Shown here piece after piece: positions 5,290 to 35,999 of a stretch of DNA of 37,288 bases (position 1 is its first letter; each line of letters starts with the position of its first letter). Below the pieces are notes generated by a model. It saw only the letters and a list, made by a program, of their open reading frames with translations, made no database searches and was not told the DNA's origin. The translations under genes were made by a program, and so were the position numbers. Origin of the DNA: Coriobacteriales bacterium (GTDB taxonomy: Bacteria; Actinomycetota; Coriobacteriia; Coriobacteriales; Atopobiaceae); assembly GCA_030533135.1 (NCBI GenBank), contig JAUNJR010000004.1, forward strand, positions 1-37,288, given 5' to 3'.

Positions 5290-5721
5290 ATGTCAGATTT
5301 GCTTGACCAGCTCATCACACCCGAGGTCCGTATGGTCCTGTACCTGATGGTGGCCTGCTTGGTGATGCTCTACATCCTTTCCATCGTGTACGTCATCCGT
5401 GACGCGCAGCGTCGTGGCGCCGAGCCTTGGTGGCTCTGGGCGGTCATTTCGGTCATTCCCATCGTTGGCCTGCTTGCCTATGTCATCCTTCGTCCGAGCT
5501 CCTATCTCGTTGACCGCGAGGAGCAGGATCTGGACATCGCCCTGCGCGAGCACCAGCTTTCGCACTACGGCATCTGCCCCAAGTGTGGTGCCCCCATCGA
5601 CCGCGACTTCATCGTGTGCCCCATCTGCAACACGCAGGTGCGCAACGTCTGCCCCACGTGCCACCGTCCCCTTAACGCGGACTGGAAGGTGTGCCCGTAC
5701 TGCCGTACGCGCATCCAGTAG
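5290..5721 (+). CDS. Membrane protein with two C-terminal zinc ribbons
   Basis: 143 residues. Two transmembrane segments (about 15-36 and 47-68) flank a short basic loop with RDAQRRGAEPWW, resembling the membrane module at the N-terminus of cardiolipin-synthase-like proteins. A linker leads to two zinc ribbons: Cys96-x2-Cys99 with Cys110-x2-Cys113, and Cys121-x2-Cys124 with Cys135-x2-Cys138. The ribbons would face the cytoplasm if the hairpin inserts with both ends inside. Molecular function is unknown; such proteins are often annotated only as zinc-ribbon domain proteins. The start ATG follows AAGGAGAG (5273-5280). A clear terminator follows, so it is probably a single-gene unit. Confidence 0.8.
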   Translation: MSDLLDQLITPEVRMVLYLMVACLVMLYILSIVYVIRDAQRRGAEPWWLWAVISVIPIVGLLAYVILRPSSYLVDREEQDLDIALREHQLSHYGICPKCGAPIDRDFIVCPICNTQVRNVCPTCHRPLNADWKVCPYCRTRIQ

Positions 5722-5746: not shown

Positions 5747-5768
5747 GGCACCCCACGGGGTGCCTTTT
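5747..5768 (+). terminator. Intrinsic terminator after the zinc-ribbon gene
   Basis: GGCACCCC-AC-GGGGTGCC forms an 8-bp GC-rich stem directly followed by TTTT, 25 bp after the stop codon. Confidence 0.85.
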
Positions 5769-5797
5769 CATGTTGTTCTCGCGATATTGGTGCGAGT

Positions 5798-5822
5798 GCG
5801 CTAAAGTGTTAGCGCAACACTT
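5798..5822 (+). promoter_or_regulatory. Overlapping palindromes in the thrS promoter region
   Basis: GCGCTAA-AGTG-TTAGCGC (5798-5815) overlaps AAGTGTT-AGCGC-AACACTT (5804-5822). Each is a perfect 7-bp inverted repeat and they cannot form together. They lie between the upstream terminator and the thrS leader, where the promoter must be, so they could be an operator or the start of the leader RNA. No clear -35/-10 pair was found here. Confidence 0.4.
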
Positions 5823-5849
5823 GTCACGAGTTCGCGGGGAGCAGCATCC

Positions 5850-5924
5850 ATGAAGCTTGGTGCCCCAGTAAGGGGTTTGGCCAACCACCACCGCATCACT
5901 ACCACGTCGACGCGTTCGCTCTGA
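5850..5924 (+). CDS. Thr-rich leader peptide of thrS (24 aa)
   Basis: A short frame starts with ATG 9 nt after GGGGAG (5836-5841) and ends at TGA 5922-5924. The peptide begins MKLGAPVRG and ends HHRITTTSTRSL, with four threonine codons (ACT, ACC, ACG, ACG) among the five codons at 5898-5912. It lies 138 bp before the threonyl-tRNA synthetase gene. The Thr cluster just ahead of overlapping hairpins is the classic design of a ribosome-mediated attenuator: low Thr-tRNA stalls the ribosome on these codons. Recognised from its sequence and position only; not a known named peptide to me. Confidence 0.65.
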   Translation: MKLGAPVRGLANHHRITTTSTRSL

Positions 5925-5956
5925 CGTATTGTCAGATGACGTCGCGCCGACGTTTT
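5904..5956 (+). promoter_or_regulatory. Putative threonine attenuator of thrS
   Basis: Four segments alternate. Segment 1 is ACGTCG (5904-5909, inside the Thr codons), 2 is TGACGT (5922-5927, at the leader stop codon), 3 is ACGTCG (5939-5944) and 4 is CGACGT (5948-5953) followed by TTT. Pairs 1:2, 2:3 and 3:4 are each possible (5 bp plus a G-U, or 6 bp). A ribosome stalled on Thr codons would cover 1 and let 2:3 form; a ribosome at the stop codon would cover 2 and let the 3:4 terminator form. A competing TCTGAC/GTCAGA hairpin (5920-5936) is also present. Stems are short and the T-run is weak, so this needs testing. Confidence 0.55.
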
Positions 5957-5957
5957 C

Positions 5958-6027
5958 CCGTCACCGTATGGTGGCGGTCTCTCGTGTAATAAAGCATGCG
6001 CTGCGGCATGCAAGGAACGTGCCGCAG
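5958..6027 (+). other. Two further hairpins in the thrS 5' leader
   Basis: CCGTCACC-GTAT-GGTGGCGG (5958-5977) is an 8-bp stem with one T-G pair. CTGCGGCA (6001-6008) pairs perfectly with TGCCGCAG (6020-6027) and competes with GCATGC/GCATGC (5994-6011). Together with the attenuator they make about 210 nt of structured leader before thrS. The last one ends 22 nt before the AAGGAG ribosome binding site. Confidence 0.45.
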
Positions 6028-6061: not shown

Positions 6062-7825
6062 ATGAAGGTTTTGTACAACGATGGTCATGTTGCTGAGTGC
6101 CCCGAGGGCGAGGAGCTGCACGTTATTCGTCACAGTGCCGCCCACATCCTGGCACAGGCCATCAAGCGCCTGTATCCCGAGGCAGACTTTGCCTATGGTC
6201 CCGCAACCGAGAACGGCTTCTACTATGACGTGGACCTTCCCGAAGGCACCAAGATCAGCGAGGACGACTTCCCCGCGATCGAGGCCGAGATGAAGAAGAT
6301 CTGCAAGGAGAACCTGAAGTTCGAGACCTACGAGCTTCCGCGCGAGGAGGCCATCGCCCACATGCAGGAGCGGGGCGAGAAATACAAGGTCGAGCACATT
6401 GGCGACCTGGACGAGGACGCTCGCATCACCTTCTACAAGCAGGGTGAATATGTTGACATGTGCGTCGGCCCGCACCTTATGTACACCAAAGCCCTCAAGG
6501 CCTTCAAGCTCACCGGCGTCTCTGGCGCGTATTGGAAGAACGACGCCAACAACAAGATGCTCACCCGCATCAATGGCATCGCCTTTGGCTCTGGCGCCGA
6601 GCTTGACGCCTATCTGAAGCGTCTTGAGGAGGCCAAGAAGCGCGACCACCGTCGCATTGGCCAGGAGATGGAGCTCTTCATGATGGCAGACGAGGGCCCG
6701 GGCTTCCCGTTCTGGCTGCCCAACGGCATGCGCCTGAAGAACGCCCTCATGGACTACTGGCACGACATGCAGGACGCGTACGGCTATGACGAGGTCCAGA
6801 CGCCCATCATCCTGTCTCGCAAGCTTTGGGAGACCTCAGGCCATTGGGATCACTACAAGGAGAACATGTACACGACGCTCATTGACGAGGAGGATTACGC
6901 CGTCAAGCCGATGAACTGCCCCGGCGCCTGCCTCATCTTCAAGAGTCGTCCACGCTCCTATCGTGATCTTCCGTTGAAGCTTGCCGAGGCTGGTCTCGAC
7001 CATCGCCACGAGCTGCGCGGTGCCCTGCACGGCCTGTTCCGCGTGCGTTCCTTCACGCAGGATGACGCGCACCTGTTCGTGCGTCCCGACCAGATTACCG
7101 AGCTCGTCACCGAGACGGCGCATCTCATCACCTCCTACTATGAGCAGTTTGGCTTCCCGTATCACGTGGAGCTCTCCACGCGTCCGGACAACTCCATGGG
7201 TTCCGATGAGGACTGGGCACTTGCCGAGGCCGGCCTCAAGACGGCCCTCGAAACGATGGGTGTCGATTACATCCTGAATGAGGGAGATGGCGCGTTCTAC
7301 GGCCCCAAGATTGACTTCCACCTTGAGGATTGCCTTGGCAGGACGTGGCAGTGTGGCACCATCCAGCTTGACTTCCAGCTGCCTCACAACTTCCAGCTTG
7401 AATATGTGGGTGCCGACGGTGAGAAGCACCAGCCCATCATGATTCACCGTGCGGGATTCGGTAGCTTCGAGCGCTTCATCGGCATGCTTACCGAGCAGTA
7501 TGCGGGCAAGTTCCCGACGTGGCTCAGCCCCTGCCAGGTCAAGGTCCTACCGGTCTCCGAGAAGACGCGTGCCTACGCGTTGGAGATTGGCAAGAAGCTG
7601 CGTGAGGCGGGCATTCGCGTTGTGGTTGACGAGCGCGACGAGAAGATCGGCTACAAGATTCGCGAAGCCCGCGGCATCGATCGCGTTCCCTACATGCTCA
7701 TTCTGGGCGAGAAGGAGCGCGACGGTGGCTTCATCTCCGTCCGCGACCGTTCGAACGAGACCGTACCGCGTGAACTCGACGAGTTTATTGCCGACATCAC
7801 CGCAGAGATTGCCGAGCGCCGATAA
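6062..7825 (+). CDS. thrS: Threonyl-tRNA synthetase lacking most of the TGS domain
   Basis: 587 residues against about 640 in E. coli; the N-terminal TGS domain is reduced to about 20 residues. The editing domain is complete: HSAAH (His24, His28) and CVGPH (Cys134, His138). The class II core shows the zinc and tRNA/ATP residues in MNCPGACL, ALHGLFRVRSFTQDDAHLF and motif 3 MIHRAGFGSFERFIG. A C-terminal anticodon-binding domain follows (KVLPVSEK ... EKIGYKIREA). It charges tRNA-Thr in the cytoplasm. The ATG follows AAGGAG at good spacing. It is probably regulated by the leader peptide and attenuator upstream. It appears to be transcribed alone; 182 bp and a palindrome separate it from def. Confidence 0.97.
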   Translation: MKVLYNDGHVAECPEGEELHVIRHSAAHILAQAIKRLYPEADFAYGPATENGFYYDVDLPEGTKISEDDFPAIEAEMKKICKENLKFETYELPREEAIAHMQERGEKYKVEHIGDLDEDARITFYKQGEYVDMCVGPHLMYTKALKAFKLTGVSGAYWKNDANNKMLTRINGIAFGSGAELDAYLKRLEEAKKRDHRRIGQEMELFMMADEGPGFPFWLPNGMRLKNALMDYWHDMQDAYGYDEVQTPIILSRKLWETSGHWDHYKENMYTTLIDEEDYAVKPMNCPGACLIFKSRPRSYRDLPLKLAEAGLDHRHELRGALHGLFRVRSFTQDDAHLFVRPDQITELVTETAHLITSYYEQFGFPYHVELSTRPDNSMGSDEDWALAEAGLKTALETMGVDYILNEGDGAFYGPKIDFHLEDCLGRTWQCGTIQLDFQLPHNFQLEYVGADGEKHQPIMIHRAGFGSFERFIGMLTEQYAGKFPTWLSPCQVKVLPVSEKTRAYALEIGKKLREAGIRVVVDERDEKIGYKIREARGIDRVPYMLILGEKERDGGFISVRDRSNETVPRELDEFIADITAEIAERR

Positions 7826-7855: not shown

Positions 7856-7892
7856 GAATTCCCCATTGGGACCTGTCCCCAATGGGGAATTC
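7856..7892. repeat. Long GC/AT palindrome between thrS and def
   Basis: GAATTCCCCATTGGG (7856-7870) pairs with CCCAATGGGGAATTC (7878-7892), a perfect 15-bp inverted repeat with a 7-nt loop. Fragments of the same words recur just downstream (TTCCCCGTTAGGGACAGG and AAGGGAATTGCC up to about 7925), which suggests a degenerate second unit. There is no T-run, so a repetitive extragenic element is as likely as a terminator. The rest of 7826-8007 holds no gene. Confidence 0.6.
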
Positions 7893-8007
7893 CCCGTTAG
7901 GGACAGGCTCTAAAGGGAATTGCCTTTGGAGACATTCTGCGCACGACGTACTCTCGGGTGGCGTGGGGTACCATAACAGAGCTGACCAACATGACAAGGA
8001 GAAACCC

Positions 8008-35685: not shown

Positions 35686-35999
35686 CGTACAGGCAAGTGC
35701 TACCATAGCGTCCCAGAGCTATGACGGGGACGCGTCTTTCGGGCAACCGCTGCCGACAGAGAGTGGGGTTGCTGAGAGCCCACGACCGCGGTCCGAAAGG
35801 TATCACCCCTGAGCTGCAACCCCAAAGCGCGGAGCGCAAGTAGACGTTGCCGGAGTGGCCGCCGACACAGGCCAGCCGAGTAATGCGGGTCTCCGCACGC
35901 TGGGTGACAAGGACAACTTTGATCTGCGGATGGTTTCTGCAGAGAGTGAGGCGTTCGTCCCAGCAGCAGGGACGGGCGCCTATTTCGTGGGCGTCCACG
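35686..35999 (+). promoter_or_regulatory. T-box leader upstream of ileS
   Basis: The linker AGAGAG (35758-35763) is followed by Stem II GTGGG/CCCAC (35763-35783). Then comes GTCCGAAAGGTATCACCCCTGAGCTG-type sequence ending in GAGCTG (35811-35816). GGGGTTGC in the Stem II loop (35765-35772) pairs perfectly with GCAACCCC (35816-35823), the Stem II pseudoknot of T-boxes. A hairpin CTGCGGA-TGGTT-TCTGCAG (35924-35942) displays UGGU, complementary to the ACCA end of tRNA. CGTCCC/GGGACG with GGCG/CGCC (35950-35980) is the likely terminator or sequestering stem. Stem I (about 35692-35754) is less clear and the specifier codon could not be placed: no ATC is found there. Confidence 0.75.

Follow-up and report, generated by a model that had tools for sequence, protein, structure and literature searches.

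A probable threonine leader-peptide element ahead of thrS in Coriobacteriia and its divergent member in an Atopobiaceae genome

Described systems closest to the thrS leader

In Firmicutes the thrS gene is typically under T-box control. The logic of a Thr-rich leader peptide is shared with Thr_leader, the Rfam family of the gammaproteobacterial threonine operon, which however controls biosynthesis and not thrS. Leader-peptide control of thrS itself is already known in Streptomyces, and the element of Coriobacteriia described here would be a variant of such control. In Streptomyces lividans TK24 the leader peptide thrL (MKRVRPFLETTPGFVPAR, followed by the stop) is encoded ahead of thrS (PMC8079986). 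Like the leaders of Coriobacteriia it is a short ORF with Thr codons in front of an actinobacterial thrS, and it has one hairpin and no clear U-tract. Compared by description only, it differs in its two Thr codons, in its leaderless transcript and in that no comparative family has been described for it (PMC8079986).

Streptomyces trpS and leuS possess classical leader-peptide attenuators. Here, too, a peptide rich in the cognate residue precedes an aminoacyl-tRNA synthetase gene of Actinobacteria, but trpS and leuS have antiterminator and terminator hairpins, whereas an antiterminator is undetectable in the family from Coriobacteriia (PMC1262725). For threonine operons in Actinobacteria a survey from 2005 found no conserved RNA structure (PMC1262725). 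The ilvB-II motif of Corynebacterium resembles the Coriobacteriia element in having a conserved uORF with cognate codons, a hairpin P1 and a U-tract hairpin P2, and in being present just once per genome, at a single gene; its uORF, however, spans P1, while that of the Coriobacteriia family stops at the P1 base, and the amino acids and the gene differ (PMC10272879).

A conserved element upstream of thrS in Coriobacteriia

Comparison of the thrS upstream regions of 96 loci revealed a recurrent layout: a short ORF ending in T-x-T-I and a TAG stop, the hairpin P1 directly after it, usually a hairpin with a T-run, and then thrS. The leader peptides end, for example, in RTQTI, TTTTVTI, THTTETI or TTTTTTI, and P1 has the family sequence GGCG-NN-TGTC ... 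GACA-NN-CGCC. A covariance model built from 25 leaders (R1) recognised the element in 82 of the 398 Coriobacteriia genomes and, among Atopobiaceae, in 73 of 140; the matches belong to two families, f1 and f3. Olsenella uli and Collinsella tanakaei are examples of cultured species that carry it. In all 38 loci checked the element adjoined thrS, lying 111-166 nt upstream. Rfam contains no such family, and ten family loci gave no Rfam match. Judged by these searches the putative thrS leader element of Coriobacteriia is widespread and unlisted in Rfam; no report of it was found in full-text literature searches, most subscription papers being outside their reach.

Across 73 distinct sequences 98.8% of the P1 pairs were standard, in an alignment fitted to the P1 structure, so that pairing percentages lean towards P1. 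Five of the ten pairs were changed on both sides, in 24 cells where shuffles gave 3.7 (0 of 500); slid registers of P1 did not come near. All 70 distinct leaders that were long enough to be scored had a Thr codon (ACT in 68, ACA in 2) on the 5' side of P1 at a distance of precisely 5 nt from its first base pair. A second Thr stood two codons upstream of the fixed one in 91% of the leaders, and Thr accounted for 30% of the final eight codons in frame versus 7% and 4% out of frame. In one leader (L011) the stop codon comes right after the Thr codon and the distance from Thr to P1 is nevertheless unchanged, which suggests that the position of the Thr codon, rather than that of the stop, is what counts. 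The sensing step proposed for the family is well supported by these comparisons.

The downstream part of the element is less uniform. A terminator-like hairpin of at most -10 kcal/mol with a T-rich tail was present in 44 of 56 family members; the remaining 12, about a fifth, lack a strong hairpin of this kind and have kept the Thr codon and P1. Permutation tests over all pairs of leader segments in the family picked out P1 and the terminator as the sole pairings, and no antiterminator emerged. The initial annotation had named as a check whether relatives conserve the peptide, its Thr codons and compensatory changes in the four segments: a conserved leader ORF with Thr is indeed there, but covariation is confined to P1 and the terminator. 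In folding simulations with a ribosome footprint on 44 members the mean terminator probability was 0.82 without and 0.78-0.87 with the ribosome, and the terminator persisted in most members when the footprint blocked P1. Since the probability is barely altered, the footprint would not act as a general switch of the terminator.

Two further outputs were considered and rejected. Pairing of the freed 3' base of P1 with the 3' arm of the terminator was possible in 10 of 39 members versus 14.8 in the shuffled control, and masking of the thrS Shine-Dalgarno site by the pyrimidine loop of P1 was weak and of the wrong sign. Of 66 leaders in the A2 family alignment, 42 have a pyrimidine-G step 11-12 nt behind P1 (10 of the 27 that lack GCTCG), which in most leaders overlaps the conserved terminator arm; its position resembles the spacing of hairpin-stabilised pause sites and may serve as a lead.

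The leader in the window and its relationship to the family

The window is the whole stretch of 37,288 nt that was analysed (contig JAUNJR010000004.1 of assembly GCA_030533135.1, from an Atopobiaceae member of the Coriobacteriales). It carries thrS with a Thr-rich ORF directly upstream (Table 1), 137 nt separating the ORF stop from thrS. Inspection of the sequence had initially suggested a threonine leader peptide at this place, with a 24-codon frame that follows a ribosome binding site and contains a run of five codons of which four are Thr. All these elements are present at the positions given (Thr codons at 5898-5900, 5901-5903, 5904-5906 and 5910-5912), and the suggestion gains strength from relatives, which carry a Thr-codon leader ORF ahead of thrS and to one of which the leader in the window is homologous. 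At least four Thr in five codons within a short ORF arose in 0.2% of dinucleotide shuffles of the 297-nt upstream region, the same enrichment for any amino acid in 10.2%.

Table 1. Features of the thrS leader and its neighbourhood in the window
Feature	Position	Strand	Remarks
Terminator-like hairpin of upstream zinc-ribbon gene (5290-5721)	5747..5764	+	GGCACCCCACGGGGTGCC then TTTT; 7-pair stem
Probable extended -10 box of leader transcript	5797..5807	+	TGCGCTAAAGT; aligned to TGAGGTAAAGT of L013
Ribosome binding site of leader ORF	5836..5841	+	GGGGAG, 8 nt 5' of ATG; aligned to GAGGAG of L013
Leader ORF	5850..5924	+	ATG 5850 to TGA 5922-5924, 24 codons; MKLGAPVRGLANHHRITTTSTRSL and stop
Thr run	5898..5912	+	ACT ACC ACG (TCG) ACG; ACG 5904-5906 corresponds to the family's Thr codon 5 nt before P1
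P1-like long hairpin	5904..5953	+	outer stem of segments 1 and 4, continued by CGCG/CGCG
Alternative short hairpin 3:4	5939..5953	+	ends at TTT; predicted with ribosome over segment 1
Second hairpin, at the family's terminator position	5958..5977	+	aligned to terminator of L013
thrS, threonine--tRNA ligase, controlled gene	6062..7825	+	TIGR00418, E 1.9e-202

The probable -10 box implies that the leader transcript begins upstream of the ORF, and a transcription start after 5924, which would have spoken against the initial proposal, is not indicated. In six other leaders of the genus TGTGGTAAAAC or TGTGGTACAAC is found 69-132 nt before the leader stop. Between 5700 and 6100 no T-box match was obtained, even with E values up to 5 admitted, and the leader in the window had no match in Rfam under either strict or permissive settings.

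The leader is divergent. R1 did not match it at 5850-5985, nor anything else in the genome of the window; the conserved lower stem of P1 (GGCG.../...CGCC) is absent from the window, where a P1-like hairpin of other sequence is found. BLAST of the leader against the 140 family genomes gave scattered, chance-like matches, none at thrS, and an nhmmer profile made from just the six further members in the genus missed it. The connection to the family was made through L013, a member of R1 (E 2.3e-8) from the same genus with the leader peptide MQDSASVWRSFNHRSTTTL. The two leaders align collinearly from the -10 box through the second hairpin, with a local score of 55; shuffles scored 23.5 (sd 3.2; 0 of 300), and the observed score also beats the best of 154 regions in 60 of 60 shuffles. 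With L013 as nhmmer query, the best match in the 37 kb was 5795-5920 (E 6.2e-5). The leader in the window is therefore supported, through one member, as a probable homologue of the family.

In the alignment the codons ACT ACC ACG of the window correspond to ACC ACA ACT of L013, and ACG 5904-5906 occupies the Thr position of the family, 5 nt from G5912. The stop of L013 falls on ACG 5910-5912, and the 3' strand of its P1, GACGTGCGCC, on GACGTCGCGCC. Where relatives have TAG just 5' of P1, the frame in the window continues into the hairpin, and both this stop and the conserved GGC/GCC base of P1 are lost. From the alignment it would follow that in the window the stop has disappeared, the frame has been lengthened so that it reaches into the hairpin, and P1 has been built anew from a different sequence.

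Not all close relatives have kept the leader. Eight genomes of the same genus are without any thrS leader (L004, L005, L006, L008, L009, L010, L012 and L017), and in a thrS tree leader-bearing and leaderless genomes are interleaved in the genus, the window's own position being poorly supported. The interleaving suggests repeated loss, and the genus has apparently given up leader control on several occasions. Loss of the frame in close relatives, which had been named as an argument against the leader peptide, is thus seen in many of them. Several of the leaderless genomes have a -10-like box directly 5' of thrS.

Some other features of the region may be recorded. The ThrRS in the window (587 aa) showed Pfam matches to the second additional, core and anticodon-binding domains only; the N-terminal TGS domain was not detected. 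Behind thrS, at 7863-7925, lie nested inverted repeats with GGGACAGG and CCTGTCCC cores, and long perfect palindromes of a similar kind occur near thrS in genomes of the same genus (upstream of it in L017 and L009); these are possibly a mobile intergenic repeat. Near the end of the window, at 35712-35867 on the forward strand, a match to the T-box family RF00230 precedes an isoleucyl-tRNA synthetase-like frame that runs past the window end. The ileS T-box that the initial annotation noted is plausible, the match scoring 31.5 bits (E 0.0019) and so staying below the gathering score of 93. Translational ileS T-boxes have been described in Actinobacteria, and the match fits them.

Ribosome-controlled hairpin and alternative explanations

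It is probable that the region upstream of thrS in the window is a 5' leader, a divergent member of the Coriobacteriia family, in which a ribosome stalled at Thr codons controls P1. Comparison of the sequences has shown the ORF with its Thr codons, the fixed distance to P1, the covariation of P1, the association with thrS and the homology of the leader in the window. The proposed element consists of a promoter, the short ORF, P1, which begins 5 nt after a Thr codon, and another hairpin that in most cases resembles a terminator. If charged tRNA-Thr runs short, the ribosome would halt on the Thr codons and its footprint would cover the P1 base, which in the window means the entire 5' arm of the hairpin 5904-5953; P1 could then not close and thrS expression would go up. 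When threonine is ample, the ribosome would finish and depart, P1 would close and expression would go down. We infer this response to threonine, and its sign, from the arrangement. P1 might be read out through translation, through Rho, through pausing, or through termination either at P1 itself or at the second hairpin.

The initial annotation had drawn a classical attenuator from four alternating segments of 6 bases: 1 (5904-5909, ACGTCG), 2 (5922-5927, TGACGT), 3 (5939-5944, ACGTCG) and 4 (5948-5953, CGACGT). A stall on segment 1 would allow 2:3 to form as antiterminator; otherwise 3:4 would terminate near 5956. The segments are real and pair as drawn, with one G-T each in 1:2 and 2:3; segment 1 shares bases with the Thr codons, as does segment 2 with the stop codon. 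Such a set arose in 1 of 2000 shuffles of 5850-5960, in none with TTT behind, so that chance is a poor explanation for these segments, as it is for the Thr-rich ORF. However, segment 1 is identical to 3 and segment 2 nearly so to 4; hence 1:4 pairs as well as 3:4, and 1:4 is the preferred fold of the leader. In partition-function predictions, which are thermodynamic and not kinetic, with the ribosome simulated as a stall footprint, the long hairpin 5904-5953 formed without a ribosome (stem probability 0.98; -24.7 kcal/mol, z -2.75, followed by UUUU; z -3.9 for the region 5896-5985). With a ribosome on the Thr codons it gave way to a small hairpin, TCTGAC/GTCAGA, which occupies segment 2, and to 3:4 (probability 0.64-0.97), while 2:3 did not exceed 0.1 with segment 1 covered. 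In these predictions the stall favours the supposed terminator and not the antiterminator. Moreover, 3:4 amounts to just -5.7 kcal/mol with four U behind and was not listed by the terminator scan, the segments were not found in L013, and no antiterminator covaries in the family. The classical switch is not supported by these thermodynamic and comparative results and is quite unlikely; segments 1 and 4 are, on the alignment with L013, the outer stem of the window's putative rebuilt P1. The predicted exchange of a strong hairpin at UUUU for a weak one could possibly make the leader a one-hairpin attenuator, unlike the one first drawn. For the family as a whole we regard as doubtful, though conceivable, that a starved ribosome at a fixed distance simply keeps P1 open with no antiterminator and that P1, perhaps as a pause hairpin, decides; if so, some members would operate without any intrinsic terminator.

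An ancestral leader that is being lost in the window, as elsewhere in the genus, and no longer regulates would account for the lost P1 sequence, stop codon and U-tract (the second hairpin, -14.2 kcal/mol with z -3.65, has the poor tail TCTCTC), for the repeated losses in the genus and for the failure of R1. Decay would hardly be expected, though, to leave the start codon with its ribosome binding site, the uninterrupted frame and the run of Thr codons all intact and a P1-like hairpin of different sequence with a stability above that of shuffles, and we consider such a relic rather unlikely. Autoregulation by aminoacyl-tRNA synthetases has precedent, and a protein, such as ThrRS at Escherichia coli thrS, might bind the structured leader, the ORF being incidental or serving translation only. 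The conserved base and apical sequences of P1 and the failure to find an antiterminator fit this idea, but a fixed, frame-specific Thr in every scored leader is hard to explain without translation and makes it very improbable.

With a ribosome-controlled P1 as the preferred reading, these Coriobacteriia would rely at thrS on leader peptides, whose place in Firmicutes is typically taken by T-boxes. The family would be a widespread regulatory element, so far unlisted, that gut and oral Coriobacteriia have at a tRNA synthetase gene. Its fixed distance between Thr codon and hairpin, the lack of a visible antiterminator and the optional terminator make it a comparative case for attenuation with textbook parts missing, a gap noted for leader-peptide attenuation in Actinobacteria since 2005 (PMC1262725).
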